64,000 nucleotides of DNA from Prorocentrum cordatum (taxonomy: Eukaryota > Sar > Dinophyceae > Prorocentrales > Prorocentraceae): positions 1 through 64,000 of the forward strand of contig CAUYUJ010015714.1 of assembly GCA_963575745.1 (NCBI GenBank). The letters are read 5' to 3'. The position numbers and the translations under genes were made by a program. The notes below the pieces were generated by a model. That model had not been told where the DNA came from. It was given only the letters and a program-made list of their open reading frames with translations, and made no database searches. This document shows positions 14,693 through 36,284 of the stretch, piece by piece (the stretch's first letter is position 1; each line of letters starts with the position of its first letter).

Positions 14693-15094
14693 CTTCGCGT
14701 ATCCCCCACCACTGCTCCGTGAGTGAGGGTTCCCTCTGCCTGGTCTCGCTCCTTTCGCTCTGCCGTTAGGTCGTTTTTCTGCTGCCTACTGCTGAATTGG
14801 CCGTCGCGGCTGCATGGGTACAGGCCCCGTGCGTGCTGTGGCTGGCAAGTTGTGGCTGCTTGCGGGCGCCGTTTGGGCGGTTCCTCGTTTGCTCGCGCTT
14901 CCGTCCGCCGCTCCCGCCGCCTTCAACTGGTCTGGCCTTCTTCCCGAGTTGGCGCCGACAGGGCGGCTCCTCGCTGCATGTGCACTTCGCGCGTTCTCGC
15001 GCTAATTATCTTGCGCTGTGCCCCAGCCTCGGTCTTTACGCCCTCTGGACTTTTCCTTGCGGGCCGCTAATCAAAAAAGCATCCCCCACCAGTG
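14693..15094. repeat. Retroelement left terminal/UTR repeat
   Basis: Non-coding GC-rich segment ending in AATCAAAAAAGCATCCCCCA followed by CCAG, immediately before the first coding region of the large retroelement. The same ending (ACCAAAAAAGTATCCCCCAC) closes segments at 36,028-36,048 and, in variant form, at 36,209-36,228. GTATCCCCCACCA also stands at about 14,699. Upstream similarity (GCTAATTATCTTGCG here, GCAATTAGCTTTTG at 35,958) suggests a terminal direct repeat of at least 110 bp, or a tandem tail motif. Confidence 0.55.
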
Positions 15095-16553
15095 GTGCGA
15101 GACAAGGACAGCGGCCCAATAATCCCGAGCGGGGCAGCGGCGACAACCCACCACCCAGGGACCACCCAGAGGACGCGACTGCAGGCAGCAACCCCCCGAC
15201 GCGAGCAGATGGCGACACCAACCAGGACTGGGGAGCAGGGCCGGAAGAAAAAAGTGGGAGCGCCTCGCAGCCCCCACCGCTACAGTCTCCGGCGGGCGGT
15301 CGAATAGGCGACCGGCCCGGACGGCCCGCGCCGAGCGGCCCACGAGCCGCCCCGGTCCAGGAGACTTCCTCCCCCCAGCCCGGAGTCCAAGGTACCGGGG
15401 TTCCCCAACCGCCGACATCCCACGCGGATTGCAACGGACAGGGGGATGAAAGAGCCGGCCGTGCGCGAACACCGAATTCGGAATCAGGGAACGCCCCGCA
15501 GGCAGCGCAGGCCCACCCCGGCGGTGAGCCCAGGAGAAGGCCTCCACCAGACAGTGTCCCGAAACCCATCCAGCGACCCACTAGGAAGGGGAGACGCCCC
15601 CAGAGCAGGACCACACCTCCCGCCCTGCATGGAGCACGGGTGGAGCTCTCTTCTCAACCGCGCCGCAGAAATACTGGACCCCCTTGGCCCCACCCGCGCA
15701 GTGGGAGGGACTAGGATGCCCTGACAGAGAGATGTGGAGGACCGTACTCAGCGCCATGGCCTGGGGCACGTCCATGCTCCAGCTGGAAAGACAGGTCAGG
15801 CAGGTGCTGGCGAGAGCTCACCTAACCGACAGGCTGCTAATAGCCTTTGATACGTACTGGGCCCAGAACCCGCCAACGGGCTCCAGGAACCCCACAGGTA
15901 GAAGGACCTGGTTTCAAAATGCCGCTCTCACAGCTGACGCGGCATGCGAGATCATGCAGTCCACGACAAGAGGAGTCCCAATATGCGAAGGCCCATCACA
16001 CCACTTCCAGCCTCTAACCGACGAAGCCCTCGACGCCATCCTCGCCACGACCATGGGGAGCTCACTAGGGGCGAACGCCAGCCGACTCAGGGCAGTCGAC
16101 TCAACCTGGCTCAACCTCAGAGGCGGGCGAGCCCAACCAGACAGCCCCCCCCCCAGCAGCCCGAGCCCGGAGAGGACGAGGGTCAGTCCTCAACAACTCC
16201 GCACAGAGCCCCACAGCGGGAGGACACTGAGGTGCGACTCCGGCCCACAGGAGCGCCCGCGGAGGAGCCGCAGCGACGCCCCGAGCGGCAGAGCCAGCAG
16301 AGCAGAGAAGCAGAGCACCCAGGCGCCACGAGGCAGCAGACCAGGAGCCGAAACAGACGGACACGGCAAGCCTGCCCCATGGGAGCGAGAGCCCGACCCA
16401 GAGCGAGGCCCGGTGCGAACAGACCCGAGGAGGACAATTCGCGTTCCCTTGCGTCAGTGCGGGATGCCCAACCAACAACAGGTGGGCAGAGCGGAGCAGG
16501 AAGGGGCGCCACGTGAAGCGCAACAGGGGCGCATGGACCAGGAGAAGGGCTAA
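15072..16553 (+). pseudogene. Retroelement ORF1-like basic protein, frameshifted
   Basis: Two overlapping + frames, 15,072-15,714 and 15,684-16,553, give a Pro/Arg/Gln-rich polypeptide of about 480 residues joined by a frameshift near 15,690. Only the middle part (about 15,730-16,110) looks globular, with a helical stretch around LERQVRQVLARAHLTDRLLI. The C-terminal part is low-complexity and basic. Position and composition fit the nucleic-acid-binding ORF1 of a LINE, upstream of methyltransferase and endonuclease/RT coding DNA on the same strand. No RRM or CCHC knuckle is seen, so the assignment rests on context. Confidence 0.45.
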
Positions 16554-16597
16554 GCAGGGCAAGACCCAGAATTCACATTCCGACCCCCACGGAGCCG

Positions 16598-18130
16598 ATG
16601 GCAGCGCCTCAGCCCGTGGATGTCCTGCAGCAGGTGCGGGCCCAGCACAGAGACCGCAACGCTGGCCTTTCACCAGTCGCCCCCCCTGATCAGGTCCTCG
16701 TGGCCTACCAGGTGGCCGGCCTGGGCAACAACCTGATCTTGGAGACTCTCAGGGCACTACATGAGCAGGGCGCCGTCAGGCTGGGCCCCGAGCGCGCGGC
16801 CGACGACATCGCTGGAAGAGTTCGAATGGAAGGGGCAGCCGAGATAGACTTCGCAGCAGGCAGGCGTGGCGCCGCAAGGGGGGGCGGTACGAGGCAGCAG
16901 AGGGACCGAATAGTGCACACCTCTCCACCTCGTGTCCCTCGTCGACGGGCGGGGGCTAGCCAGACTAGCCGTGGGCGACCTCGTCCACAAGCTAGGATCC
17001 AGCCACAAATTTCGGTCGTCGGCTTTCGCAGAGCACTGCAGAGGGGCAGCTGAAGCAGTAGCGCGCAGATGGAGCGCCGCCCCCGACCCACAAGACGGCG
17101 GCCCCCCACGCAAGCAGCTGGCTGAGGACGTATGGGACCTCTTCCGCCGAAGGGATCCCCTCGACGATAGAACGCCGTGGGAAGAGCACCTCGATTCCTT
17201 GGAACCGGGCAGCGCGCTACTCATCGCGGCAGGCCCACCCTGCAGCGACCTATCTGCGGCCGGCCAGCACGCGGGTAATGACGGGCTGGCCGGGGCCCAG
17301 TCCTGTTGCTTCTTCGCTGTCCCGATAGCGTGGTACCTGGTAATCAAGCGGAGACCTGACCTAACCATCCTGGCGCCGGTGGGAAACGCGGCCTCCACGC
17401 CCGCCGCGCACCGCAAGGCCATGTGCGCAGCCATGGGGGGCTTGAGCTCGAGTGGGCCATTAAAATGAACGCAGGGGACGCAGTTGCCAGCCCAAGAGAG
17501 CGACTCTGGTTTGGGAACTCCCCACCCCCAGTCGACACCATAACCTACCCCCGCCCCCCCAGTCCTTGGGAACCGAGGTGGGCATACAGGCCAGACGGAA
17601 GAATCCCAACGTGGACGCAGTCCAGAGCCCCCCCAGGGGGCCCAGACACGATCCTTCCGAGTAGCTACCAGACCCACCTCCTGCGCCTACTATACGACGA
17701 AGACAGCAGCCCCAGGTGGTTCCTCAGAAACCCAACCGAGCTGAAGCACGGAGCAATACAAATACTTGCAGAGTGCGGAGCAGAACAGCGCTTCGCAGGA
17801 TGTACGGATGGCCTGAACCTTGTCATGGCAGGAAGAGAAAGGGAGAGCCCCGCTGCAGAAGAAAAAGCCAGGGCCTGGGGAAGATGGCTAGTAAAGGAGG
17901 GCAGAGCACACGGACTCAGACCCCCCACGGCTGAAGAAAGGGCGAGGGCCGTGGGTCTAGCCGGCTACTGCCCGGGGCTCGGAGTACGTGACAGGGCGCT
18001 CTACGACGCGGTCGGCATACATTTAGACCCCCGTTGCCTGCGACGCAGGATAGTATCCGAACTACGGGCATGGAGCACGGGTCGCCAAGGGGCGCGACCT
18101 GCGCGCCCGCCCCCACAAGCGGGCAGATAG
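16598..18130 (+). pseudogene. DNMT3-like cytosine-5 DNA methyltransferase domain in a retroelement
   Basis: Encodes most of a C5-methyltransferase in two frames, with a frameshift at the G6 run near 17,437. Visible motifs in order: motif I SLVDGRGLARLAVGDLV (SAM binding, about 16,935); an acidic segment FAEHCRGAAEAVARRW; motif IV AAGPPCSDLSAAG with the catalytic Cys (about 17,231); GLAGAQSCCFF; a motif VI equivalent VGNAASTP; motif VIII-like AGDAVASPRERLWFGN (about 17,470-17,515); and C-terminal motif IX/X elements EERARAVGLAGY and DAVGIHLDPR. The PCSDLS and RERLWFGN words resemble the DNMT3 group (PCNDLS, RARYFWGN in animals). Oddities: the ENV glutamate aligns with Gly (codon 17,382-17,384) and the GNSF-like motif X reads GIHL, so it is probably inactive. 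It lies directly between ORF1 and endonuclease coding DNA. C5-methyltransferases captured by dinoflagellate retrotransposons are known. The leading 16,598-16,925 part is unassigned. Confidence 0.8.
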
Positions 18131-18544
18131 CGCAGGGATGGGGAGCAGCGAGAACGCACGCATGGGCGGTGCCCCTGGGCGCAGCTCAGGGAGCGCCCCC
18201 TCCCGGACGACCTTGCGGAGCAGCTTCTGCGAGAGGAAGGGCTCTTTCCCCGGTTAACGCTCCCCTGGGCCCCGCAGAGGGCCCCAGGACGCTACACCAG
18301 GCGCTGGGGCCACCGCCCAGGCACCTCCCGGCGCCCGGGCCACGCGCCCGGGCATGGCAAGAAGCTCGCCGCTTTCTCAATTTTGATTTAGAAACTCGCT
18401 GCCTGTGCAGAATACGCGGGCCGAGGGGCCTGCGGTGTCTCCTCCACTCCGACCCTTGGAACCATCCCACTTGGGGCTCCCTCTGCGGGGATCTTACCCT
18501 TAGCGACTTGCTTCGCGCGCTTGAAACCACCCCAGCCGGCAACC

Positions 18545-19250
18545 TCCCCAGGCTCGCCAGTTGGAACGTCAAACACCTTCGAGCTGCACAGCGGCCAGAA
18601 ACCAGCTCAAGCACGCCCTCCTCGCCCAAGCCACCATGAATAACCGCGTCGCCCTGGCGCAAGAAACGCACTGGTCCGAGCGCGAGACTGAGGTCTGGAG
18701 AACCATGTTCCCAGCACGAACCCCGGTAGCACCCCCGGGTTACCTGGGGCCGTCCGGAGGACTGGCCGGAGGAGTGGGCATCCTTCCCCCTCACGGCGTC
18801 GCTCTCCTCGAGCAACAGGTAGTTGTCTCAGGGTGCGCCGTCGCCGCCGTTGTCCGACAGGGCGAGCGCAGGTTCAGGGTGGTCTCAGTGTACCTCCCAC
18901 CCGCCCGTAGGGAGGACACCCTCTCCGAGATCGCCCTGGCTTCGGAGCAATGGGGGCACCTTGACACCTACTGGGGAGGCGACGTCAACCTGCAGCTCGA
19001 TGACCCACGAGACGGCGAAGCCGAGGCCTCCGCCCTCCTGATGGACCTTCTGACAAGCGCTGGCTCTACGACGGTTCACGCGTCCGGGCCCGCCAGAATC
19101 GACAAAGACAGCGAATCACATTTCGACGTGCTCGCGCGCCCAGCGCGGCAGACATACGCCTACGAAGTCCGTAAGCTCTGGAGGCTAGCACTGTCGGATC
19201 ACGCACTCATCACCCTGGAACCCCAAGGGGCCAGAAGGGCCAGGCGGGAC
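18545..19250 (+). pseudogene. AP-type endonuclease domain of the large non-LTR retroelement
   Basis: An exonuclease-endonuclease-phosphatase fold of about 230 residues. Signature words run in order: LASWNVKHL (metal-binding Asn), LAQETHW (Gln-Glu), GGVGIL, VVSVYLPP, GGDVNLQLDD (Gly-Asp-x-Asn), HFDVLA and LSDHALI (catalytic Ser-Asp-His). A frameshift near 18,590 separates the first motif from the rest, and another in a C-run near 19,275 separates the domain from the RT linker. The domain nicks target DNA for target-primed reverse transcription. All catalytic residues are present, so the copy is broken by indels rather than by loss of active-site residues. Confidence 0.85.
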
Positions 19251-19259
19251 AACGCCATG

Positions 19260-22200
19260 AAGGCTGGGGACCTCGGGAACCCCCCCCACCGCCGCACACG
19301 CGGACCTGGCAACTCTTCTTCCACCTGGAGCTCACCTTTAAACCCCCCCCCGTCAACCTCACAGGCCTCGCCCAGCCGGTGGGCTGGGTTAGACCGGCTA
19401 GCCCAGGAGGCTTCCCCGACAGGCACATCGATAATGACGACGGCGAAGTTATCATTCACAACGCCCCCTTGCGCTCAACCGCGCTCAGGCTGCCGTGCGA
19501 GAAGCCGACCACATTCCACCCGTCCTACCTACTCTCATGCGGTTCGGGAGACAGGCGCCCTCCGCCGCGTTGCAAGACTGGGGGAAATGGGGGAAGCACA
19601 AGTCGCGAGCCTCGCCTGGCCTCCTGACAGCCGCCAGCCAGAGGAGCGGGGCGACACGCCTGGTTGGTGCCCTAGCAACGTGGCTGCGCGAGTACGGATG
19701 GGGCGGGCAAGACCTCGCCCCAGGATCAGCGGCCGAATGGCTGAGAAGGTGGGGCGCCGAGACAACCCGGAGAAGGGCTGCCAGATTGACCCCGGCGCAG
19801 AGAGGTCCCGGCGCGGAGCGCGCCCCCCTGGCCGCCCACTACAGGACCGGAAGGGAAATCTACAAGAAGACCACGCCATCCTATAAGTTCGCGACGCCAC
19901 AGGCACCTGGCAGGACAGGCTCGAGCAAGTCGACTGCGCCCTTTGGGACAGCCGCAGTGCAATATGGCACTCCGCCCCCCCGCTGCCCGACTCCGCCACG
20001 CGGCTCCTAGAACTATACTTCCACCAGCACCCCGGCATCGACGTCTCTAGCAGGCCCCGGCCAAGCTGGGGCAGGCTGGCCTCCATCGTCCTCACCCCCA
20101 GCGGAAGTGCCCCCAGGGTGGGCGGTGAGCCGTGCGAGGCGCACCGCCCTGGGGCTAGGTTCGTCGCCTGCCTCATCGCGCAGGCGTGTCGCGCGGCTGA
20201 TCTCAATCCAGCCCTCCTGGACGAAGTACTCGGGCCATCCGTGGACCTCCTGGCGTGGATCGGCAAAACGGCCGGAGCCGAAAACCCCAGCGACATGAGG
20301 CCACTCCAGCTACCCACCTGCCTTCGGCGTCTGTGCGGGGCCCCCCTGGCCGACCTGTTGGGCCCTTCGGTTGAACCGTTCCCCAGCCGGAACCAGGCGG
20401 CCACAAGAGGAGGACAGTGTGGCCCCAACATCACAAGGGTTACCCAACGCCTGGGGTCTCCCCCCAAGCCACCAGCTGAACCCGGCCCGGCCTGGCCGGC
20501 CCTACTGGGCAGGCACAGGGAGGCCGTAGACGGCTTCATCGAAAGAGCCGCAGCAGTGGCAGGGAACGCCCCATGCACGGCGGTGATCTTCTGCGATCAG
20601 AACAAGGTTTTTGAGCGGATCTCGTTTCAATGGATGGGCCGCCTCCTCCGAAAATGGAAGCTACCCCCTTGCCTGCTACATGCGCTGAATTCCCTAGTTG
20701 GGGACCGTAGGGTGCAGACGTGCAAAGGTAAGTACAGGGGGCCCGAGCGGCGCCTCGATCCTACGGTCTGTAGGGATGGGCGGTGCCGCCACCCCGCTCC
20801 TGTGGTGCATGGGGTACGACCCCCTCATTTCAGCCCTTGCAGACATCACCGCCGACGACGACCCCACATACGTAGACGACCTTGCAGCGCTGCGCAGCAC
20901 CACAAAGCAGACGTTGCGCGCCGCCATCGCCCTCCCCTAGGCCGCGCACGCGGCCGGGCTCCTGGCGGATGCACACCGATGCAGAGGGATCAGGATGGCT
21001 GATTCCGAGGCCCTCAGGGCGGCGCTGGAAGGTGCTCCGGTGCACTACGAACAAGACGGTGGCGACGTACAGATCACTGGGCCCCAGGCGAGCTCACACG
21101 GACCCTCGCCAAGGGAAACATGGAGCAAGGCTCGCCCAACTGGTGCGCCCCCTACCAACGCCCCTGCAGCTGCGCCTTCAAGACGGCACTCGTCCCTGCG
21201 GGCCACCACGAGTGGTGGCGTTCCCTCATGGAGTATACCCCCTTCGGGAGCTCCTCGGTGCGGGACCAGTGGCCGTACCTCGGTGCGGTAGTGGTCTCCC
21301 GTGCCGCCGAGGGCGAGCAGCCCGCCCCCAGAGGATGGACTCACCAAAGGGCAGGGCGACACCCTGACGAGTAGCACCTGGGAGCGCCCCCCCCCTAGGA
21401 TGAGGGACAGAGCCATGGCCCTGCACCTTGCCAAGATGTCACCCTCCCGTACCGCGGCCGCCTGGAACTCCTACCGGGTCTCCCTCGTTCCCTACGCGGC
21501 CCACTACTCCCCCCAAACATTGTGCAAGAGCGCGCGCTTCGCGTGCAACTCAGGACTGCGTTCGGGCTTGCCGGGGCGTCGTGGGCCCCCGACTTCGCCC
21601 TCGCGGGGCTGAGTATTCGCTTCCAGGTGCAGGGTGCCCCAAGGTGCCCAGTTGCAACAGCCCGGGCCGTGGCCGCCAGAACACGTGCCCCTAACGATTT
21701 CTGGGGGCCCGCACCAATCAGGAAACGCGCCAGGACGCGGTGGAACAAGCTGCTCAAATGGGCGACCGAAGCAGCTCGACAGCCCGAGGCGTCCCGACCC
21801 AAACCCAAGATGATCGCCGAGCGAAAAGCTGCGCTCGCGCTCAACCGCGCTCGCGAGCGACCAGAGCTTCTGGAAGGCAGGCGCCCCGGCAAGGTCATCT
21901 ATGTAGCCGCCTGGGCGCGAATGCATTGCACCTCCCTTGCCAGATGGCTCGAAGAAACCAGTCAAAAGAGGAGATGGCATCCCTCGTGCGGAGAGGAAGG
22001 GGGGCCCCTGTATCACTGTGCGTCCTTCACAGAAGCCCACCACGTCATTCGCATACTCTGCAACGGCATTCCCGGATCAGCAAGACGGAGAAGTGAAAAC
22101 GAGAGGAGGCCGCGCATGTGCCCCTGCGGCGCACGCGCCAAGAGCGTGTGGATCACAGCCAGGCCGGACGACGATGGCGCTGCCTGGTGCGCGAGTTGCA

Positions 22201-22450
22201 TTGGCCCAGGGCCGCACGCCTCCGCGCTTTTGCAGTTGCTAGGCCCCGGCGCCCTGCCCCCTGCACTGAGCGACCCCGCGGAGGCCTACGCCCGCGCCCA
22301 GGGTAGCCTTCGCGCCCCTACCAGGACGGGCCCATACGGCCATTGCCGCCCCTGCGGGCTAGGTGAGGCAACCACAGAGCACGTGTGGCACTGGTGCCCA
22401 GCGACCGCGCTTGCCTGGCGCACGGCTCGGGGCCCAGACGACCCAGAAAC
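19260..22450 (+). pseudogene. Reverse transcriptase and C-terminal zinc region of the large retroelement
   Basis: RT motifs are spread over several frames. DMRPLQLPTCLRR (fingers, about 20,293); motif A IFCDQNKVFERIS (about 20,590), where the aspartate follows FC; motif B GMGGAATPLLW (about 20,776-20,808); motif C PTYVDDLAALRS (about 20,860-20,895) with the catalytic Asp pair. The thumb and connection regions follow, and a cysteine/histidine segment CGLGEATTEHVWHWCP at about 22,355-22,400 resembles the zinc-knuckle found after RT in many LINEs. Shifts fall near 19,490, 20,720 and 20,940. This RT belongs to the AP-endonuclease LINE clade by domain order. It is followed by RNase H in the same orientation. 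Confidence 0.8.
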
Positions 22451-22473
22451 CTTAGCCCAAGCCATCGCCAGCA

Positions 22474-23613
22474 GTGGCGATCACCAACCCCTCCTCGCAA
22501 AGGTACTGCACCAAATCTCCTTCAGATGCTGCGTCAACCTTACCGCTACCCCCCTCGAGGCTGACGAAGCGGCCAGACTCATCCTCCAAGGAAGCGTCGC
22601 CGCTTACACCGACCAGCAAGGGGACAGCGACGACGACGTCATCGACGGAAACGAGCCCCCCAGGCACGACAACCCGGACGAGACAGCTGCGTGGACTGTC
22701 ATGCGAGGCACTTGCCGCACGTGCCAGCCCCCAAGCTATCCCCGAAAGGACCATCTGCGGGGCTGCCAGGCCACACATGACCCGGCAAGCTCACAGGGCG
22801 GGAGGAGAGGTACGCAGACTCCCGGTGGTCACCAGACACCACAACGCAGGGGACAAGCTGGCGGTCATGCAGGCCTCACAGTTGCGCGCAGGATGGACGC
22901 CACCAGGACAGGGCTGGTTCCCCTGCCCCAGAACAGACAACAACCCCATTGCAAACTGGACGTCGGCGTACTGCCGAGAACGCCGTGCGCACACCACAAC
23001 GCTGACAGCCGACACAGACCTAGAACCCGGGGGTGAAGTCACCGTCCGCAGCTCCCCCTTCCCAGACACCAGCAGCACCCAATGGCCATATGAAGTCACC
23101 TTCGACGGCGGCGCCCGGAGCATCGAAGGCCGCACCAAAGTCTCAGGGGCAGGCGCTCCCCTGTGGCATCATGACCCCGCCACCGGGACCCCCAAAGTTA
23201 TCGCGGTTGCCATCGTCGCCCCCCCTGACTGCAGCAGCGCGCAAATGGCGGAGGTGGCTGGCTGCCGCGCGGGTCTTGCCCTGCTACCCCACCTACGAGG
23301 CCCCCTCCGGGCCGCCAGGGTCGTAGGTGACAACCTAGCCGCCATGCGGCACGGGGCAGGCACTGCCAGATACCGGAGACTTCACCTGGCCCAGCAAATG
23401 GAGGACGCCCTTGGGCAAGCGGAGAACGCCGGCTGGGTGCTCGCATGGCAGGCAGTCAGACGGCGACTGAACAAGGCAGCCGACAGCCTGGCCACCATCG
23501 GGGTCTATACTGGGCCGACGCCCTACTCAGGGAGGGCGAAACCACCGTCCGTGCGCGCATCTGGTGGGTGGGCACCGCCCCGGACCCCCCAGTCACTTCC
23601 CTGCCAGGATTAG
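22474..23613 (+). pseudogene. RNase H domain of the large retroelement
   Basis: An open frame of 379 codons. Its C-terminal third is a type-I RNase H: YEVTFDGGARS (first Asp, about 23,092), AQMAEVAGCRAGL (Glu), ARVVGDNLAAM (second Asp) and RRRLNKAADSLA (the Asn-x-x-Ala-Asp end motif, about 23,460-23,495). All four catalytic positions are present. Upstream, in the adjacent frame at about 22,700-22,770, lies a small Cys/His cluster CRTCQ...HLRGC. The domain would remove RNA from the RNA-DNA hybrid during integration. Confidence 0.8.
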
Positions 23614-23639
23614 TCAAGACATCATTCCGCGCGCGAGAG

Positions 23640-24062
23640 TGCCCCTGGCTTCGCTAGGCTCACTTCAACGGCGAATGGTGCTGGTGGTGCGAGCTCTGCC
23701 AGAGGTACTGCGACGGCAAAGGGCATCTCCTCGCGTGAGAGCACTGGAACGAAGGCGACAAGCAGTGGGGCAACGGGTGGCCCGACCCACAGGAGTTCAC
23801 CTCACCTGGCAATTTCTGGACCATGACAAACGGGACGGAACACGACCGCGTGCGCAATTGCAAGATCAGCAGGCTCCGCTGGGACGGTTGGAAGAAGCCA
23901 GCGCCAGAGAAGGTTCATGGTCAGCCCCACCTCCCAGAGTGGACTTTCCCAGGCGACTGGGACTACGTGCCAGTCAACTTTCCTTACAGGGACGACGCCC
24001 ACGACTTCTTCACCCCCACCGGCACCATCCACTCCAGTGCCCCTCCCCGCCCGCGCAGCTGA
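23640..24062 (+). pseudogene. Zinc-finger-like segment after RNase H
   Basis: In the + frame ending at 24,062, the words EWCWWCELCQRYCDGKGH and EHWNEG form a Cys-Cys-His-His-like cluster at about 23,670-23,755. A Trp/Pro-rich stretch follows (PEWTFPGDWDYVPVNFPY). A TGA follows HLLA inside the cluster. A related CELC word (WLCELCWIKS) recurs at about 28,530 in the same retroelement. Function unknown; perhaps nucleic-acid binding. Confidence 0.4.
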
Positions 24063-24239
24063 GGTTGGCCTGGGGGAGAGCGTCAAGGGGGGGGCCCAGC
24101 GTCTGGGGCACCCCTGGCCTACTCTCCGCGCCGCGCCCAGAGTTCTCAGCCAGGCGCGACGCAGGGGGCAGCAGGCCCAACGCCTCCAGCAGGGCCTCCT
24201 CTCAGGAGTCCGCGGACAGGCCCCGATTCGAGGCAGATG

Positions 24240-27200
24240 AGAGCGCGGGGCAGCGCAGCCAGCACGGCGCACCCCCAGCGGAGATAAGGAAGGTATCGCT
24301 TGAGTCGTCTGCTGTGGCCGCCGCCGACGCCATCAAACAGCGATGCACCGTTCCTGCCAGCAGCGCAACCGCCCAGCTCCGTCTGCACACCCCCCTGGGG
24401 GCAATCGCAGAGGGCGTGAACCTCCCAAAGCACTGGGAGCAGGACCTGCGGCAAAGGCGGCGCAGCCTCGAAAGGCTGGCCTGGGCCGAATGCATGGCAG
24501 CCACAGAGACTGTTCGGGACAGCTCTACCAAGGCCAGAACAGACCTGGAGAGAAGGCAATGCTGCGCTCCAGGCGTGTCAGTCACCCCCATCGACAAGGA
24601 TTCAGACTGCGACATCCTCGATCACTTTAATCTGAGGAACGCATTCCCCACCCAGGTCGGGCAACTGCTGTTTCACTTGCAATGGCCTCGGATGTTTAGG
24701 GTCCTCCTCAGAGGTCAGGACGCGGGGCAGGACGCCCTCATGCTGCTCCTCAGCATCACCAACCCAGCAGCGGACCAAGTGGCCACAGTCAAGCTCCTCT
24801 GGCCGCCAGACCTCGGAGGCACGGTACCCTCAAATGACTGCCAGGCACTGGGGCTCAGACAGGGATCGAGGTCCCCCAGCAACGAATGCATTGTGGCATA
24901 CGACGCCGAAAAATTTGGGGAGTTACACGCAGATGACAGGATCCCGAGACCCACCCACGTGGGACAACCGTGGCACAAAATGGACAGGGCCCCCTCCTTG
25001 CTCCAGTTTCGACGGATCTCCACCGCAATCACCGAGATCTACAAGCTACAGCAGGCTCCGCGCGACCTGGTCGGGACCCCCCTGGACGTCATCACCTACC
25101 TCCTCACTTTTTGCACGGATGACAAGAAGGACAAGATGCGGGCCGACGGCGTACGCAACGCATCACAGTGTGGGCAAACCCTACTTGCTCGCGCCACGGC
25201 CACCCTTGAGGCGCGCTTCCCCAGCACCAGCCAGCCAGCAGCGAACGCCAGCACAGCGCTACCCGACCCCCCCACGGAGCCCCCGGCTGCCGCCCCCTTC
25301 TCAGACCCAGAGGTGGACGAAGCCATCGGACAAGTCTTCCAGCGCGCCAGGGACCTACCACAGCATGCGGCCCTCGATGAAGGGGCCAGACGCCACAGCC
25401 TCAACCGTGACGCTACAAGGGCCCCCACCGCCTCCACCTTGCACCACGTAGCAATCGCACACGGGCCCCCCAGCACAGACAAGACAATCTTCTCCGCTGC
25501 CACTATGGACACATGGGGAAACGCCCTCCCGGATGGACTGGCAGTCGCCCTGGCCGCAGGCTCCAACACGGCCGCCGACCAGCCGGCGCTCGGGCTAATC
25601 AGCGCGCGACACGCAAACAAGTTGGGCCCCCTCACAGGGTTCCCGACCAGGCGCGTGCGCTTGGCCAAAGAATTCAAAGTTGCCAAGGCGCTTGCAGCGT
25701 TCACCCCCGGAAGGCACTACCATAGAGCCACCAGCAGGTACCCATGCGAAGGTGGATTCCCCAAAGACTTCCCCGCATTTCGGACCGAGCTACTCATGGA
25801 CGCCAAGACAATCATCGCCACGCATGAATCTGCGGAGGCACTACAGAAGGCCGCCCACGTCGCCCTACTCATCATAGACGAGGCTGGGCAAGCGCACGAG
25901 CTAATGGCCGCCATGTCCCTGGACAGCGTCATCCGCTCCGGTGGGCACCTAGTGTTGGTTGGCGACCCCAGGCAGCTCCCCCCCGCAGTCATCTCCAGGA
26001 ACGCGGCGGACCAAGGGTTATGCCTCTCCATCTTTGACCGCCTCCACCATGCCCTGGGGGGGCGACCAGTCCGCCGTGGTGCAACTCAGCCTCTGCTACC
26101 GCATGCGCCCCCTGCTATTGGCCTGGCCGAGCTGTGTCTTTTACAACAACACAATGCACGCTGGCCTAACATACCCCCTGTCGCAGAGACCCCTGATCGA
26201 AGGACTCCCATGGCGGGCCCCCCATCCCCTGGGACGACACCAGAATCGTTGACCTAACAGAAGCGGCGGGCACCACCGAGGACGACATGGAGCACATGTT
26301 GCGCGGCCTGGATCCAGGGAATCAGCGCAAAGTGGAGCGGCACCGCTTCCTACTGGTGGACAACCCCTCCTTGGAGGTCACTTCGAGGCTGCGCGCAGGA
26401 TACGCCAACCTACTGGAGGCAGCGCAGACTGTAGACATAGTGCGTGCCCTCCTGCCCGCCATGCGGAACGGCTCCACAGCGCGGGTGGTCGTCGGCAACC
26501 AGCTGCAGTGCGCCATCCTTGAAAACGGATGGCCGCAAAGCGTGCGCGGCATCAGTGGCGCCTTCAGGCGAGCCAAGACCAAGGGCAAATGGAAAGGGAA
26601 TGACGGGGCAGCCTCAGGCAATGAGCCCCCCCCCCCCAGACCGCCCCACCAACGCTGGCGACCACGCCAGCGTCTTCGTGCAGCGCCGCTCAGAGCTCAC
26701 AGGCATCTCCTTGAGCTTTCCTGGGCTGCGGAGCCTCGCTGAGGAGCACCTGGCAAGCGGCGAGCTCACCATTTCAACCATTGACTCCAGCCAAGGCGGC
26801 GAAGCCGACCTGGTCATCTTCCTGACAACCAGGTCTAACAGTTGGCACGATTGGGGCTTCATGGACATTGCCAACAGGGTGAACGTGGCAATCGCCCGCG
26901 CCACCTGCAATGTGGTCACTATCGGTGACGGGATGATGCTCGGCACCGCGACAGGTTCGCGCCTACGGGAGCTCTCTGAGTACGGAAGGTTCGCCAAGCT
27001 CTGGGCTCGCTTCTCGCACTCGGGGGACATGGGCGACAGGTGGACACTGGCAGTCGACAGGGGATTCGATCCCATCCCAGGTCTAACCACATGGATCCCG
27101 GCTTCCCCCTCCCACACATGAGACGAGGTCATCAAGGGACTCGACAATGCCATCGGGGAAGCCCGTGCCTCCATGGAAAAGAACTTTGCAGATCGGGTAG

Positions 27201-27496: not shown

Positions 27497-27547
27497 GCCA
27501 CCTCGCGCCTGGCCGTCCCCGAGGCGTCGCTCCCCCCACTACCCTTC

Positions 27548-28735
27548 GTGAAGGGCGCCAGCCACCGCCCCAAGAGCACCAGCCGATGCACTCCCAAGGA
27601 CGTGTTACAGCAACTCCCAGCGGCTTGGAGCCAAGAGACGGGGAAATGCAAGCGGCACCGTGCGCGCCCAGGGATGCAGCACCTGAAGTCTCTGCTCCGC
27701 CCAGGCCAAGCTGATTCGGAGCTACGGCAGTCTCCTCAGCAGCGACGGGCTCCCCATGGACACCCCCGCGCTCAGGGTCCTCCTGGTGGTTATGATGCTC
27801 CAACTGCGAGAGCCCCGCGCGACGCCATGGCCATTCCCACGCCCCGAGGCCATGGGGGGCATCATCGAGGCAGCCGTGAGCCTCTGCTTCCCCTGGCAGA
27901 ATGTCCACACAGAGCACAGGGAACAGTTCGCAGGGCCTGGGGCTTCGACTTGTGCGGCCTCGCATCCCTCCACGGGAAGATGGGGGACGCCATCAAGCAT
28001 ATCAGCACGCTCGCCACCTACGCCCACCACCACCACCAGGTTGCGACCAACAGCGGGTGCCCAACCACGTGGACAGGGATGCTGGACTATAAGTTCACGC
28101 TGGAGGCCCCCATGCGGGCCCTGGAAGCAATCGTCAAGCCGGCCGACATCAAGTCCCTGAGCGAGGGAAGTTGCTCCATCTGCACACTACACAAGGAGCT
28201 CAGCGAGCTCAGCGGGGCCGAGGACAGGCTCGGCCGCCCTAACACAATGGCAGACCTGGAATACATCGGCGGGGGAATCGCCATGTCCAACAAGCGCCTC
28301 GACGAAGACTCCCCGGCATCCCCGGCCCCCGGCACGGCACTCAACCCACCCAGGGTAAGCGACGACAGGTTCCACACCAGGCAGCAGGCCGGCAGCTTCG
28401 ACTGCGACGGGCGCCCGAACGCCGGGCTGCAGGGCTCGGCAGGCACCTGGGAGGACGACGACACAAGGGAGCTACTGGCGCAGAACCGCTCCCAAGCGTA
28501 CCTGCAAGGCCGAAACTGTAGGTGGCTGTGCGAGCTGTGCTGGATCAAGTCGCTGGAAAGCAGAGGCATCGAGGTCCCCCTGACCGAAAACAAGGACCTC
28601 AGCAACGAGAAGTCGCTCCAGCAGCGCCTACTGACGTACAAGCGCACATTGGACGAGGCTCGCAACCGAAAGAGAGCCCGCGCCCCCCCTCCTGGATCGG
28701 CTCCCAATCGGGCACGGGCAACCGGACAATGCGCA
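27548..28735 (+). pseudogene. Unknown retroelement-associated coding region 1
   Basis: Continuation of the + strand coding region. After a TAG at 27,494-27,496 the protein-like sequence runs through two frames: a helical stretch TPALRVLLVVMMLQLREP in the frame at about 27,756, then FDLCGLASLHGKMGDAIKHI and onward to about 28,700 in the first frame. The later part is rich in charged residues and contains WLCELCWIKSLESRG, then a predicted helical end. No family is recognised. It may be a second accessory protein of the large retroelement. Confidence 0.4.
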
Positions 28736-28739
28736 ATTC

Positions 28740-29961
28740 CCCTCCTGCCTGCGCGACCTTGTCATGAACGCCCCGCCCGTCTACAGGCCGCGGGCAGTCG
28801 GCGCCGCCCTCCCAGCCCACGGGCTGTCCGACGGCAGATTCACACCATGTGAACCCCTCCTCCGCCATGTGCGACACCTGCCCCGCGGGGTCGCCACTGC
28901 TCGCGTGGTCGACAAACAGCCCCGCACTCGGCTGCTTCATGTGGAGCCCGGAGCCAGGTGCGCCGCGCAACGACGAGACAGGGCTACCGCCTTGAGATAC
29001 CATGCCCGCGCTCTGGACCCAGCAGCAGTGGAACGCAGGTTGGGCCTGCAGGCGATGCCTCATCCACATCTGGAACGTAGCGCCCGGCACGCTCGACCGC
29101 ACCCTGGACCAGCACTCCTCAAGGGCATATCCCATCACCCCCACCAGGCGCGCAGCAACAGCAGAAGTGCAGGAGGATAGCTGCGACATCAGCGTCCACC
29201 TCTCCCCAGCTGGCGTCAACGCAGCGGCAAAGGACACATGCTCAAGGCCACCGGCCCCGAGGGGCGAGCTCACCCCCAACGACAGGGGGCACAACAGCGC
29301 GGCAGGAGAAAGCAGCGAACCTGTCAGGGTCGGACGCGACAGCAATTCCGTCTTCCCCAACGTGGGCCCTCCAGAGTGCCCCGTCCTACCAACCCAATCC
29401 ACCCTCAGGCTCTCCGGGGTGGAATCTGACGGCCCCGTTAACCCCTTGGTGAAGTACCTTCTGGAATGGAATCGTTCCGTGTACAAATGTTGGGCCGACC
29501 TCGCACAGCGGTGCGGCGACGGTATCCCAGGGGACAGAGCCGATGAGGGGTCGTGGCCCACAGCAAGCTTGCTCCCTTTCCTGGTAATGATCTACGGAGA
29601 GTCGATCCCAAACAACGGCCACCCCCCCGACATCCCATGGGACGGGCAACGGGCTGCAGTGGCCAGAGTGGTATACCACTTAATGAGATCCAACGGGAAG
29701 TACCAAGGCACATGGGATAGTTACGCTGCCAACCTGACAGAGCAGAGAGGCCAGTGCCCCTTCCGACAGCGGATCGGCACACTGCTTACATTCCCTGTGG
29801 AAATTGACCAGGCCGCCCTGGCCTGCGGCACCACCACCGCCCCGACCAAACGAGACCCGCGCGAGGCGGCCGCAGGCTCCTCAGCGAGGGGTGATTCACC
29901 AGCAGCAACCTGGCAGCTGGCTGAACAGAGCAGTCGAAACCGAGGACCCCCCCCCCGTGGA
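28740..29961 (+). pseudogene. Unknown retroelement-associated coding region 2
   Basis: Frame open from 29,002 to beyond 29,961, preceded by protein-like sequence in another frame from 28,740. Visible features are a CxxC pair in WNAGWACRRCLIHIWN (about 29,030) and a globular-looking segment at 29,440-29,800 (words YLLEWNRSVYKCWADLAQRC and LLPFLVMIYGESI). The frame runs into the left inverted repeat of the 29,962-33,265 element, so the protein is cut by that insertion. No family is recognised. Confidence 0.4.
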
Positions 29962-30040
29962 GTTGATAAAACCGTGTGTGCGTACCGCCTCGTTTTGCTG
30001 CGTTGCATCGCCATCACCAGCATCATCATCATCCTTGTAA

Positions 30041-30240
30041 TCAACTTGTAATCCGCCACAAAAGAAATCCATTTCAAATCCGCCACAAAAGGAATCAATT
30101 TGAAACCCGCCACAAACACAATTGATTTGTAATTCGCCAGAAAAGGGATCCATTTGTAATCCGACACAAAAGGAATCACTGTATATTTTGCCACAAAAGG
30201 AATCAATTCGTAATCCGCCACAAAAGAAAACCTTCTGTAG
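30041..30240. repeat. 27-bp tandem array, left side
   Basis: Seven units based on AATCCGCCACAAAAGGAATC followed by a T-rich spacer. The same unit, inverted and direct, makes up the palindrome at 32,290-33,140. Confidence 0.85.
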
Positions 30241-30249
30241 GGAGGGGGT

Positions 30250-31585
30250 GTAAATGGTGGGTCAATCGCTATTAGGATTCTATGAGAGGTGGATCCATCT
30301 GTCATCGGATTCTATTAGGATGGAAACATCTGGAATGGGATGATCTTAGAGGTGGATCCATCGCTAATAGGACCCCACTAGAGGTGGATCCATCTCATAT
30401 CGGATTTCATTACAGGTGAATCCATGTCTAATCGGATCCCAGTATAGGTGGACCCACCTCTAATAATATTAAATTAGAGGTGGATCCATCTGTAATAGGA
30501 TTCTGTTAGAGGTGAATCCATGTGTAGCAGGATTATATTAAAAGGTGGGCCCATCTCTGTTAGGATTCCATTTGGAGCGGATCGATCTGTAGTAGACTTT
30601 CAGTTGAGATGGGCCCATCTCTCATAGGATTCCGTCAAGTGTGGATCCAGCTGTAGTCGGATTCCAGTAGAGATGGATCCATCTGTACCAGGATTCTAGT
30701 AGATGTGGATCCATCTGTAATAGGATTCCATCAGAGGTGGACCCATCTGTATCAGGATTCTGGTAGGATTGAATTGGGGGTGGACCCGTTTGTATTACGA
30801 TCCTATTAGAGGTAGATCCATATGTAATAGTATTTCTATTAGAAGTGGATTCATGTCATGTAGAACCCCATCAGAGGTAGGTGAACCCATCCCTAATAGG
30901 ATTCTCTCAGAGGTGGACCCATATGTAATAGGATTATATTAGAGGTGGGTCCATCTGCCATAGGGTTCTGTTAGAGATGGTTCCATCCGCATTAGGATTC
31001 CATTAGATCCATCTCTAATCAGATACTACTAGAGGTGGGTCCATCCTTAATAGGATCCCATTCGAGATGGATCCATTTGTCACAGGATTCTGTTAGAGGT
31101 GGACCAATCTCTAATAGCATGCCATTGGGGATGGAACCATCTTATTAGGATTCTATTAGAGGTGGATCCATATGTAATTGGAGTCCATTAGAGGTGTATC
31201 CATGTCTAATTTGGTGTTATCAGAGGTGGATCTATCGCTAATAGAATTATATTCGAGGTGGGCGCATCTGTAATGGGGTTCTATCAGACGTGGGTTCATT
31301 TGTAAAAGGATTCTATTAGCGGTGGGTCCATCCGTACCAGGATTCCATTCGAGGTGGATCCATCTCTGATGTGATGCCATTAGTTGTGGACCCATCTTTA
31401 ATGGGATTCTATTAGAGGCGGATCCATATCCCATACGATTATATTCAAGGTGGTTCCATCTGTAGTGGGATCTTTTCAGGGGTGGATCCATTCCTAATCG
31501 GATTCTATGGAAGGTGGATCCATATGTAATAGGATTCTCTCGGAAGTGGATCCATCTGTAGTACGATTCTACGAGAGGTGGGTGT
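30250..31585. repeat. 32-bp satellite array, about forty units
   Basis: Degenerate tandem copies of AGAGGTGGATCCATCTGTAA then TAGGATTCTATT. The spacing between successive GGTGGATCCAT words is 32 bp where measured. The unit contains a BamHI-type GGATCC palindrome. No gene is present. Confidence 0.9.
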
Positions 31586-31591
31586 CTTTTG

Positions 31592-32041
31592 TGATGACGA
31601 TGATGATGATGACGAGCATGCGTTTCAAGATGCTGCTGACGATGATGATGATGACGAGCATGTGTTTCAAGATGTTGCTGCTGATGATGGTGATGACGAG
31701 CATGTGTTTCATTGCGCTGCTGATGACGATGGTGATGACGAGCATGTGTTTCAAGATGCTGCCGATGACGATGGTGTTGACGAGCATGTGTTTCAATATG
31801 CTGCTGATGACGATGGCGCTGACCAGCATGCGTTTCAAGATGCTGCTGATGACGACGATGATGATGATGACGAGTATGTGTCTCAATATGCTGCCCATGA
31901 CGATGGTAACGACGAGCATGTGTTTCAAGATGCTGCTGATGACGATCATGATGATGAGTATGTGTTTCAAGATTCTGCTTATGACGATGGTGATGGCGAG
32001 CATGCGTTTCAAGATGTTGCTGATGATGATGGTGATGACGA
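31592..32041. repeat. 42-bp satellite array, about eleven units
   Basis: Units read GATGACGATGGTGATGACGA then GCATGTGTTTCAAGATGCTGCT, 42 bp or, with an extra codon, 45 bp. The period is a multiple of three. The + frame reads a 14-residue unit (DDDGDDEHVFQDAA) over 185 codons and one minus frame reads another (ISSILKHMLVITIV) over 199 codons. Neither has a start context or domain, so translation is doubtful. Confidence 0.85.
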
Positions 32042-32289
32042 GATGCGTTGGGGGCAATGCGTTGTCATAATGAGTTCCACAGAGCATAATCGAGTGGGAA
32101 GCACAGCCCACCAGACTAAAGTTATCCTCTCTTAACCCTTCTTCCTCCTCCTCCTCCTCCGCCTCCACCGCCGTCTCTTCCTCCTCACCCCTGTTACTTC
32201 CAGTGGGTGAGCGCCGAAGCGCGTTCCAGAGAGATTAATAAGCCTTTATATCTCGATTCTCCGGCCTCCGGAGGCCCGAAACAAACAAT

Positions 32290-33140
32290 ATTAGCGGATT
32301 GCAAATTGATTTCTTTTGTTGTTGAACTACAAAAGGGAATCCGTTGGTGGTGAACTACACATTTTTTTTGTGGCAGATTGCAAAAGGATTCCTTTTGTGG
32401 AGAATTACAAAAGGACTTCTTTTGTCGAGGATCACATGATGATTCTTTTTTGTGGCGGATTACAAAAGGATTCCTTTTGTGGAGGATTGCAAAAGGATTC
32501 CTTTTGTGGAGGATTACAAAGGGATTCCCCTTGATGGAGGAATACAATGGGATTCCTTTTGTGGAGGATTACAAATTGATTTCCTTTGAGGGTTCTCCTG
32601 GAAGTGAACCAGGGGACAAAAGAAAAAAATAGAAAATCATTAAAATTTAAAAAAATACAGGTTTTCAGTGAATTTCCAATGTTTTGAAGCAGAAACATAT
32701 AAAAAACACAGCATTTCCAAGGTCTTGAGGCCCAAACCATATGAAAACACATCATTGTTGTATTCGGATTGTGAACATGCTGTGTTTTTTATATGTTTTT
32801 GCTTCCAAACATTGGAAACTCATTGGAAACCTGCCATTTTCTAAATGTTCAATGTTTTTTTTTTTTTTTTCTTTTGTCCCCTGGTTCACTTCCAGGAGAG
32901 CCCTCAAAGGACATCAATTTGTAATCCTCCACCAAAGGAATCCCATTGTATTCCTCCACCAAGGGGAATCCCTTCGTAATCCTCCACAAGGAATCCTTTT
33001 GCAATCCTCCACAAAAGGAATCCTTTTGTAATCCGCCACAAAAGGAAACAATTTGCAATTCGCCATGAACAGAATTCCCTTTTAATTCCCTACAAAAGAA
33101 CTCAATTTAAAATTTGCCACAACAGGAATCGTTCTGCATT
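32290..33140. repeat. Large imperfect palindrome, arms of about 370-430 bp
   Basis: The left arm (32,290-32,722) and right arm (32,772-33,140) are reverse complements with indels. Both contain TCTCCTGGAAGTGAACCAGG, GGGACAAAAGAAAAAAA, TTTCCAATGTTT and ATATAAAAAACACAGCAT. The outer parts are 27-bp units GGATTACAAAAGGATTCCTT then TTGTGGA. The loop is about 50 bp around 32,745. Confidence 0.85.
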
Positions 33141-33277
33141 CCACTACTTTGAGCAATCCCTTTAAAGATGGCGAAAAGCATAATCAACAGGAAAGCAAGC
33201 AAATGAGAAGTAATAGACCAAAAACCGAGGTGGTACACACACACACACACACACGGTTTATCAACCTTACCCCCCCC

Positions 33278-34508
33278 CACCCCCCCCAGCAGTCAGCATT
33301 GGGCCTGCGCAAGAGGACACTTCTGCCCGTGCCCCCAGAGCGACCCTCCCCCCGCCTCACGCGCAGACGGGGGGCGCGACCCTCAGGCAGAGGGGAGGGC
33401 TCCAACCGGCCAGGCAAGCAAGATCGAAGGCGAACCAGACGGGATCGACTGGGGAGGGGAAGGGGACAGGAAAAGCGAACCCGACAGCGCCAAGGACCCG
33501 AGCCCGGAGCTCAGCCCAACCCTTGTGGCAGACGAGGAAGAAGTGAACCCCCTCAAGCTCTTCCTGGAACCACCCGACAGGCCCGACGCCTGGTCCCCAT
33601 GCGACCGGATCGCTGTCAGGAACGCCGTCCGCGTAATCAAGAGCGCGAGAGACAGCCCACAAAGAGCAGACAGCGCAGCCTGGGGCATCAACGACGTCAG
33701 GGACGACCGTGCCCTCAGCCGCGGGGGCGGTGACAAGGGCCGCCAGCGACCCGTGTGGGAAGACGCCAAGGAAGGGGATGGCCGTGCCACCAAATCCCCA
33801 AGAGGCGACCCAGCGCGGGTACACATTTCCGAGGCGCCCTGGAAGGATGCAAGGGCCACGCAGCCACCCCGAGGCAACCCAAGCGACCCCATGGGGGGCA
33901 TCCCCATGTACATGTGCCCTGTTGCCGATGCGGACGCCGCGAAGGATGAACCCGCGCAGGAGAAGAACATGCGCCTTCAAAAGACGCTGGGAGGAGCGTT
34001 CAATGGAGTTTGGGCCGCATGGGTGAAGACGGCTGCGATGAGACAGGGGGCCAGCGGAAGCGAAAAACACGACCCTAAACGGAACGCGGTCCAGTCGCGC
34101 AGCGATTTCATCCAGGCGTGGGACAGCGCAGGGTACGACGCCTATAAGATGGACAGCGACCTAGAGCTCAACGTCCACTGGCCGTCGGTCAAGGACAAGC
34201 ACGTGAAGCTCCTCGAACGCGAACCCAAGACCCACGCTCAGCGCGGACCTGCCAGCAGCAGTGGACCCGCCCCGTGGACAGCAGAAGGCAGAGCAGCCGC
34301 GGCGGCGCCCGCGCATGATCGATGGGCAGGTGCCATCGGCTCCGCCACCCCCACCCGCTGGCAGGAATGGCGCGAGTGGAATTCCTGGAGCCACCAGAAA
34401 GCACCGTGGACGGAAACGGAATGGAAAGGGAAAGGTAAGCGCTACTCCCCCAGGGGAGACGATCGATGCACAGACAAGCGTGCACGATGGTGGGACAGGG
34501 AGGACTAG
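33278..34508 (+). CDS. Retroelement-type basic ORF, largely intact
   Basis: The open frame 33,525-34,508 (327 codons from the ATG at 33,525) is uninterrupted; protein-like sequence in the same or an adjacent frame begins near 33,278, just outside the right end of the 3.3-kb insertion. The N-terminal part is charged (MADEEEVNPLKLFLEPPDR). A central helical region spans 33,960-34,210 with KTLGGAFNGVWAAWVKTAAM and RSDFIQAWDSAGYDAYKMDS. The C-terminus is basic and Trp-rich (WQEWREWNSWSHQKAPW then EWKGKGKRY), a composition seen in nucleic-acid-binding proteins. No known domain is recognised. It may be the last protein of the interrupted retroelement or the ORF1 of another copy. Confidence 0.5.
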
Positions 34509-35930
34509 TGCGCCCAGGGGTAGCAGGCTCGGGCTGGCCTGACAGCGCGCCCCCCTGCACTCCCGGCCCGTCGCCCGCGACCCCCCCCCTCGTCGCCTGC
34601 ACCTCTCCCCGCTGGGGATGGTCTCACCTCGCAGCGCCCGGCCTCGGCCGCAATGCCCCGGGGCAACTCCCGCCGGGGCGGGGGCCTCCCCGCATCTCAC
34701 CCCTGGCGCAGCATAGCTAGACAGCCCACACTGGATAAGTGGATCTCGCCTGGGCGTCTCCCCCCCCCCTCAGCAGATGGGGGCCAGCCCGCAGGCCTCA
34801 CCGGCCCCGGGGCCGCCTGCTTTGCTGCCCCACGGCGACAGCCACTCTTTCTCGGTGACAAGGGGACGGCCGCAGATGCATCCCCCCAGCGCACCTCCCT
34901 TTGCTGTCCAGCTTGACAGCCGCCCGCTTTCGGTGGCAGGGGTCAGTCGTCTGAAATAGTCGCCCCCCTGCACGCCGCTCAGCCGGTACTTTGGCAGTCT
35001 GCAGCTCCAGCCATGTTGCGTAAGGCCGCGGCGCATGAACCCCCCATGAGGCGCGCCCGACGCTGGCGCGCTCCAGCTCGGACCGCATCGGCGTGGATTT
35101 GCCGCCCCCCTCGATGCAAGTGTCTTGCGGCGGCTAGCTGCCCCCCCCCCACATGCGTGGATGTTCTCGGCGTGCAGCTGCTATCAAGTCACCTGTATCT
35201 TGCGGCGGTTAGCTGCGCCCCCCGTCTCCACTGCAAGGTGCACTCTGAGGGTTGCGCCCACTACCGGACAACCAGGTGACAAGGGGCGCCCCGGCGCTGC
35301 TGCAGACTGGCCGCGGTGAGGGACGGCGCCTCCCGCGTGGCCCGGTGGGCGCCCCCTACTGTGCCTCAGGGGTTCGCCCGCGGCGGCTGCAGTGGCCAGA
35401 GCGGTTGACCCGACGGACAGGCTGCTCGGAGGTCTCCCCCCCCACGGGCCGACCCCCTGCGTCGTCTGCGGCTGGCGCCGGTGGGCCGCTTCGCAGCAGG
35501 ACGACACTGTGGTGCTCGGGCAGTCGCTGGTGTCCACCGACAATGAGGGTTGTGTGCCTGAATGCCTCGCCCTGAGTGTTGCAGCCTGGTACAGCCCGCG
35601 TTTTACGCATGGTCGCACCATTCTCGGGCCTCCCCCGCAGGCGCCGGATTCGATGCGATGAGTGCCGCCGGCCCCCCCAATTCTGCGGTGGAGTTCGAGG
35701 GCTGCGCGCTGTGTGGTTCAGCCTTCCGCGCCTTCGGCCCCTTGTTTTCCACCGCCAGCAGCTTGTTACCTGGGCTCGCGCATCGTTGCTAGCCGGGTCG
35801 GCTGCTCGGAGCTTGGCGCCGCAAGGGCGACTCACTCCGCTGCACTCGCACCCGTGGCCGCTTGTACACTTTGGTTTACTGGGCGGCGCCTAGGTGCGTC
35901 TGCTGGTGAATGCTGAGCATTTTGTTCAGT
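34509..35930. other. Non-coding GC-rich region, probable retroelement UTR
   Basis: No domain is recognised. There is one short direct repeat: CTTGCGGCGGCTAGCTGC near 35,127 and CTTGCGGCGGTTAGCTGC near 35,200. Position between the last ORF and the terminal motif suggests a 3' untranslated region. Confidence 0.4.
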
Positions 35931-36232
35931 GCATAGGCAACTGCACGCTCTGTGTGCAATTAGCTTTTGTTTCGGCCGCCCCGGACATTGCCTCTCGCCG
36001 CCAGACCGTCGCCGCGCGGCCGCCGACCAAAAAAGTATCCCCCACCAGCATTTCGATCTCCACGCCACCGGGTCGGGAGTTTCGTTTCTGGCTCTTCTTC
36101 TGAGTGGCTGCCCGCGCGCTCGCTTCGCTTGCCTCTCTTTTCTTGCTGCCTAGTCGCGGCCCGACTAGTGTTCGGACGGTTTTCGACCTGCTTCGCGAGC
36201 CCGCAGACCAAAAAACGTATCCCCACCAGCCC
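35930..36232. repeat. Retroelement right terminal motif, two copies
   Basis: Two segments end in almost the same tail: GACCAAAAAAGTATCCCCCA (36,027-36,046) and GACCAAAAAACGTATCCCCA (36,208-36,227), each followed by CCAGC. They match the tail at 15,069-15,094. The arrangement fits terminal direct repeats, or tails of successive head-to-tail insertions. Confidence 0.55.
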
Positions 36233-36284
36233 ATTCAGAAACCCTGCCCATGAGAGCTGACGGGAAAATGGACGAAGAGACACA

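Follow-up and report, generated by a model that had tools for sequence, protein, structure and literature searches.

RESULTS AND DISCUSSION

The window analyzed here comprises positions 1 to 64,000 of contig CAUYUJ010015714.1 of Prorocentrum cordatum (C14865:1-64000 in our survey of the genome, which covered 4.13 Gb in 21,875 contigs). Its positions 15,093 to 36,034 are almost certainly one 5′-truncated, decayed copy of a family of giant non-long-terminal-repeat (non-LTR) retrotransposons, or long interspersed nuclear elements (LINEs), and not several elements lying side by side. Collinear copies show a family unit whose predicted parts are, in order, a methyltransferase, an endonuclease, a reverse transcriptase, an RNase H, a zinc-like segment, a UPF1-like helicase, a C-terminal region, and a 3′ untranslated region (UTR). 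It is because such copies recur that the block from the methyltransferase to the 3′ UTR is regarded as one unit. An earlier reading of the window, made from its letters alone (the sequence-only reading), had placed coding-like DNA in the order from the first open reading frame (ORF1) to the last ORF on the plus strand, and this order was borne out, though in broken frames.

Four other copies are referred to by letter: A (contig C21688), B, C (C21680, locus L053), and D (C14011, locus L056). Copy C is collinear with window positions 15,086 to 36,041, in order and at 84 to 89% identity, with 29,954 joined directly to 33,280. Copy A is collinear from 21,606 on, likewise without the 3.3-kb insert found in the window, and copy D (73 to 75% identity) is collinear to 29.9 kb and patchy beyond. 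The expectation of the sequence-only reading that removing this insert would leave one collinear unit thus agrees with copies A and C, and copy C, collinear throughout, also spans the ORF1-methyltransferase junction, across which that reading had proposed to look for further copies. The features of the window are as follows.

15,061 to 15,078, plus strand: A-rich 3′ terminus of a LINE inserted earlier at the same target (GGGCCGCTAATCAAAAAA directly before the duplication; layout as in the other tails)
15,079 to 15,092, plus strand: 5′ target-site duplication GCATCCCCCACCAG (13 of 14 bases equal to 36,035 to 36,048)
15,093 to 16,900, plus strand: N-terminal part of ORF1, lacking 5′ sequence that copies C and D have (collinearity with copy C begins at its position 2214, 88% identity)
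16,914 to 18,127, plus strand: predicted C5-cytosine methyltransferase domain, in two frames in the window copy (motifs, genome matches, substitution rates)
18,550 to 19,230, plus strand: predicted apurinic/apyrimidinic (AP)-type endonuclease, start of ORF2 (motifs SWNV, QET, GDVN, and SDH, by eye)
19,887 to 21,200, plus strand: predicted reverse transcriptase in broken frames, YVDD near 20.85 kb (motif; profile match in copy D)
23,071 to 23,476, plus strand: predicted RNase H, near the end of ORF2 (motifs by eye)
23,600 to 24,059, plus strand: Cys-rich zinc-like segment with CWWCELC, apparently opening ORF3 (C-part in 24 of 29 other loci)
24,500 to 27,118, plus strand: UPF1-like superfamily 1 (SF1) helicase, Walker A degenerate in the window copy (AAA_11, AAA_12)
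27,497 to 29,953, plus strand: C-terminal Cys-containing region (aligned in copies A, B, C, and D; no Pfam family in copy D)
29,955 to 33,279, no strand: later insertion with minisatellites and inverted repeats (29,962 to 29,983 and 33,245 to 33,265), absent from copies A and C
33,280 to 34,508, plus strand: last coding region, one unit with 27.5 to 29.95 kb (in copies A and C nothing separates it from 29,954)
34,509 to 36,034, plus strand: 3′ UTR ending CCGACCAAAAAA (aligned in copies A and C)
36,035 to 36,048, plus strand: 3′ target-site duplication GTATCCCCCACCAG (31 of 34 parsed copies have a closely similar sequence behind their tail)
36,049 to 36,216, plus strand: 168-bp LINE fragment with its own A-tail, a further insertion at the same site
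36,217 to 36,229, plus strand: third copy of the site, continuing into the target repeat (empty sites elsewhere)

Methyltransferase and helicase recur as one unit

The methyltransferase and the helicase lie 7.6 to 8.2 kb apart on one strand at 19 places besides the window (18 if the near-identical C21239 and C21680 are merged), which upholds the earlier proposal of a LINE carrying both enzymes. For this count, 75 helicase places (five secondary pieces of the 80 being omitted) were set against 66 of the 150 methyltransferase places, namely, the first 55 and 11 more on contigs shared with a helicase, a choice that could only lower the count. The comparison gave 32 same-contig pairs, 20 of which, the window included, have this spacing and orientation. 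Moreover, on contig C8025 the position of a helicase was predicted from the spacing to a methyltransferase match (52% identical), and a helicase 45% identical to that of copy D was present there (E = 1e-118), with Walker A and DEAG intact.

The surroundings of 29 helicase loci outside the window tell the same story. RNase H is found within 1.5 kb upstream of the helicase in 19 of them, so that the RNase H-helicase junction, the other one singled out by the sequence-only reading, is spanned in further copies. The C-part of the zinc segment lies upstream in 24 and the C-terminal helicase motifs downstream in 28; at locus L037, tblastn detected neither RNase H nor the zinc segment nor the C-terminal helicase motifs. 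Twenty loci reach the limit of the fetched sequence, and nine start inside it, at scattered points. Blocks that end independently at a fixed boundary, which the sequence-only reading had named as the finding that would speak against a single unit, were not seen among the 29.

These data bear on an alternative raised by the sequence-only reading itself, that of two or three separate elements head-to-tail, with a methyltransferase LINE ending after RNase H and followed by a helicase-bearing element. Head-to-tail insertion does occur at this target, and RNase H and helicase apparently lie in different ORFs, as separate elements would have it. However, the RNase H-helicase junction and the methyltransferase-helicase spacing recur in other copies, even in the divergent C8025, the starts of truncated copies are scattered, and no tail pattern separates RNase H from the helicase in the window or in copies A to D, which makes this alternative extremely unlikely. 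Serial insertion at this site is real, the window holding at least three elements, but the unit at 15,093 to 36,034 is one of these and not a composite.

Several points count against the reading of the block as a single LINE copy. Twelve of the 32 same-contig pairs are spaced otherwise (one at 4.5 kb, 11 at other distances), and the counts, for which only top candidates were scored, give no share of methyltransferase LINEs without a helicase. ORF limits derive from decayed copies, and the support for endonuclease, RNase H, and methyltransferase consists of motifs and weak profile scores. Methyltransferase pairs are often near synonymous saturation (median pair dS, the synonymous divergence, 1.98), and for the helicase the ratio of nonsynonymous to synonymous divergence (dN/dS) climbs to 0.4 to 0.8 between closely related copies, which is what dead copies would show. 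Finally, four of nine truncated copies do not show the target site at their start.

Methyltransferase

Methyltransferase motifs I, IV, VI, and VIII occur in order, and an alignment with DNMT3A keeps all of them; motif VI is degenerate in the window, regular in some copies, and irregular in others. A profile of 11 family sequences matched 18 chains of solved structures at E up to 1 (best 0.038), 16 of which are DNA methyltransferases (DNMT3A, DRM2, or so named) and two ribosomal RNA N-glycosidases. Pfam DNA_methylase was recognized in 6 of the 11 family sequences, with E values from 0.018 up to a limit of 1. At least 150 matches to this domain are present in the genome (the best 150 of 1,153 candidates were scored), with a median dN/dS of 0.18 (52 usable of 105 pairs).

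The methyltransferase would mark new copies or target DNA. The ratio of observed to expected CpG dinucleotides, weak evidence in this respect, is 0.75 to 0.85 in element copies versus 0.83 to 0.95 in the window flanks. Retrotransposon DNA methyltransferases able to methylate CGs de novo are reported in the abstract of PMC5890265.

Endonuclease, reverse transcriptase, and RNase H

The assignment to LINEs follows from a reverse transcriptase and an AP endonuclease, together with the fact that none of 14 repeat families contained an LTR-like pair, the endonuclease being recognized by motif and the RVT_1 score lying under the cutoff. Variable 5′ truncation and target-site duplications, also typical of LINEs, were both found. 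The endonuclease gave Exo_endo_phos_2 at E = 0.054 in the window and no match in copy D. RVT_1 was found in copy D at 9.2e-6 and 25.9 bits, below the curated cutoff of 29.6, with YVDD present, and it had no match in the 18 window pieces searched with Pfam. In these pieces the helicase was clear, and besides it there was only a weak RNase H-type match (RVT_3, E = 0.074; no match in two other copies). The reverse transcriptase piece of copy D gave no match to solved structures at E = 0.01.

Other LINE-like loci with strong RVT_1 exist in the same genome (L001 to L008), mostly with open frames of about 1,330 to 1,350 amino acids. The longest frames of these eight loci had no tblastn match to the window.

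Helicase and probable ORF3

The helicase was identified by AAA_11 (8.5e-18) and AAA_12 (4e-14) in the window and by AAA_12 (3.5e-24) and AAA_11 (1.1e-21) in copy D. UPF1 was the best of the 19 solved-structure matches of the latter (6.8e-20). Walker A, DEAG, GDPxQLPP, and the C-terminal motifs of the AAA_11/AAA_12 pair mark it as a UPF1-like SF1 helicase. The genome holds at least 80 helicase matches (the best 75 of 7,112 candidates were scored), and the main pieces outside the window are 53 to 81% identical. Searches of protein databases returned 0 to 3 matches, all distant and of the UPF1/SMUBP2 type; with the best ~8,000 candidates scored in each, they do not establish that the helicase is absent from other dinoflagellates.

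Walker A is regular in copy C, in C8025, and in a consensus of nine family sequences, but the window has a degenerate form of it and copy D a changed one. The state of this motif in the window and in copy D, as well as stops in many helicase copies, would suit a passenger, acquired by an ancestor in a single capture and functionless since. Against this stand a median dN/dS of 0.27 over 405 pairs (range, 0.15 to 0.78; about 0.2 at dS near 1) and the intact Walker A and DEAG of the 45%-identical copy on C8025, and we consider such a passenger quite unlikely. A helicase in use by the element would help to copy or free a very long RNA, by unwinding structure or an RNA-DNA hybrid; alternatively, it would shield the long RNA from RNA surveillance.

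Among 19 parsed loci outside the window, the zinc segment lies beyond the end of the RNase H frame in 18 and shares its own frame with the helicase in 9; the helicase therefore probably lies in a separate ORF3, as far as frames can be parsed in decayed copies where single stops could be mutations. The coding region beyond the helicase is continuous in the second copy on C21680, where a single open frame crosses the join of 29,954 and 33,280.

The 3.3-kb stretch that interrupts this join in the window was rejected as part of the LINE, being absent from copies A and C. Its ends are 21- to 22-nucleotide inverted repeats inside C-runs, and between 29,962 and 33,265 it contains repeat arrays with 32-, 42-, and 27-bp spacing. 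It looks like a nonautonomous DNA transposon.

Size and 5′ end

The longest copy seen, copy C, measures 18,912 bp, and the window copy measures 17,615 bp without the insert. To our knowledge, no longer endonuclease-type LINE has been described. In copies C and D about 1.4 kb of additional coding-like DNA precedes the point that corresponds to the window start, common to both from C 820 and D 306 and divergent before that. Because these copies continue further upstream, the start at 15.09 kb is, as judged from the alignments, a 5′ truncation and not the start of the element, which corrects the sequence-only reading at its 5′ boundary. The upstream region (copy C 820 to 2214; L056:306-1710) is conserved as the 5′-terminal part of the longer copies, and its frame in copy D had no Pfam match. 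Other copies begin elsewhere: copy A at window position 21,606 and the second copy on C21680 at ~27,550, while copy B aligns from 22,537.

Target site and serial insertion

Copies are found at GTATCCCCACCAG, a sequence within a dispersed repeat, and these 13 to 14 bp are present on both sides of the inserted element. In the window, CAAAAAAGYATCCCCCACCA occurs exactly at 15072 and at 36028 (0.02 chance matches expected at up to 3 mismatches), with a third, variant tail at 36209. The sequence-only reading had noticed the nearly identical tails before the first ORF and after the last region; the match stands, and its nature is now seen to be a short A-tail plus a 13- to 14-bp target-site duplication (GTATCCCCACCAG). 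Two other views of the tails, namely, that they are LTRs or mark the ends of two elements, were considered and rejected.

The end of the 3′ UTR (window 35,900 to 36,033) has at least 42 matches in the genome (the best 40 of 826 candidates were scored). From 38 fetched 3′ flanks, 4 of which were dropped as not fitting the tail pattern, TATCCCCACCAG was found within 3 edits after the A-tail in 31 of 34 copies, compared to 7.9% of shuffles, and 8 of the 34 continue into further target sequence. The A-run itself is mostly 5 to 10 bases long. At the other end, five of nine truncated copies (L015, L018, L019, L023, and L038) have, within a few bases of their start, CGCTTCGC and after it the site or a near variant of it; the comparison of copy ends proposed by the sequence-only reading thus showed the site at the start of these and not of the other four.

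A first look at the target repeat gave 3,488 candidates (40 scored). Among 20 sites inspected, 7 are preceded by CTTCGC without a LINE tail and 13 by an A-rich tail, some tails being short or interrupted; two pairs of sites share identical upstream DNA, and two of the 7 tail-less sites have the same upstream DNA. Since the sequences upstream of empty sites differ from one another, the edge of the repeat seemingly lies some ten bases before the insertion point, on its upstream side. In the window, this repeat occupies 36,217 to 36,340, and several LINE tails have landed in it.

It could be argued that GTATCCCCACCAG is the element's own 3′ end and not target DNA, given that it follows the A-tail in 31 of the 34 parsed copies. 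Yet it also stands directly before the start of copies, there without an A-tail, and in sites with no LINE before it, and a variant of it flanks copy A on both sides (about 1% of random pairs reach that match score). We therefore hold this explanation to be very unlikely and treat GTATCCCCACCAG as target DNA.

Target-primed reverse transcription is established for LINEs, and at a preferred site it would explain tail, duplication, and truncation alike. Insertion preserves the target because the site is duplicated. Each insertion leaves a site downstream, and later elements would therefore pile up head-to-tail. In the window the series runs from an earlier tail through the site at 15,079 to 15,092, the element, the site at 36,035 to 36,048, and the 168-bp fragment to the site at 36,217 to 36,229. 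At eight loci chosen because their flank departs from the target after the 13-bp site, a second tail with site was found within 500 bp downstream in six, five of which run into the target; with up to 3 edits allowed, the rate in 500-bp stretches drawn at random from the window was 2%.

Surroundings of the element

No Rfam match was obtained for 34.0 to 38.5 kb, and a search for transfer RNAs found none. A long GGA/TCC microsatellite at 12.9 to 14.3 kb produces spurious long open frames on both strands, and a degenerate CTTGGG-type repeat at 36.6 to 37.2 kb is also present near copy A (L039).

Comparison with known systems

R1, R2, TRAS, and SART are sequence-specific LINEs, each inserting at one repeated target, and Zepp of Chlorella forms head-to-tail clusters. 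The target of the family described here is, in contrast, an unnamed dispersed repeat, and the likeness to these elements lies in the pattern of insertion.

Methyltransferase LINEs are reported from Symbiodinium as SymbioLINE-Dnmt in passages of de Mendoza et al. 2018 (PMC5890265). As in those elements, a DNA methyltransferase ORF is found here upstream of endonuclease, reverse transcriptase, and RNase H, although the domain identities are weak by profile. According to the same passages, target-site duplications and purifying selection on the methyltransferase are likewise common to both. The window family differs in its helicase in a further frame, its size of ~18.9 kb, its one preferred target, and perhaps its short A-tail, SymbioLINE-Dnmt being described as free of a poly-A tail. 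The words “helicase” and “target site” do not occur in the main text of PMC5890265.

Insect TRAS/R1 LINEs carry a viral-type SF1 helicase, as described in passages of PMC4686597 and PMC5563155. Like the family described here, they have an additional SF1 helicase that lies beyond the reverse transcriptase and is preceded by a zinc-finger segment. The TRAS/R1 helicase, however, is tobamovirus-like and sits at the C terminus of ORF2, whereas that of the window family is UPF1-like and in a separate frame; fusion to the ORF2 C terminus was not observed, in that 18 of 19 loci close the RNase H frame before the zinc segment. A cytosine methyltransferase is not mentioned for TRAS/R1 in the passages of these two papers. 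Helicases and DNA methylases are both treated as accessory domains of retrotransposons in PMC6338049, in passages that do not describe the two together in one element. Within a partial coverage of the literature, no publication was found that describes a helicase ORF in a methyltransferase LINE, or one of this size or with this target.

The family widens the limits of LINE architecture in its size, in its third coding block, and in the union of methyltransferase and helicase in one element. It offers a natural test case for the contribution of a helicase to target-primed reverse transcription, and serial insertion at one repeated site in a genome of several gigabases is a concrete way in which dinoflagellate genomes could build repeat arrays and grow. 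As a bolder and still doubtful proposal, this could be the largest endonuclease-type LINE known, with a helicase ORF that enables reverse transcription of a 19-kb RNA, a methyltransferase that marks landing sites, and head-to-tail arrays that extend themselves at the surviving target. Set against the known systems, methyltransferase LINEs of dinoflagellates are already familiar; the helicase ORF, the size of ~19 kb, and the preferred target appear new within the literature covered.

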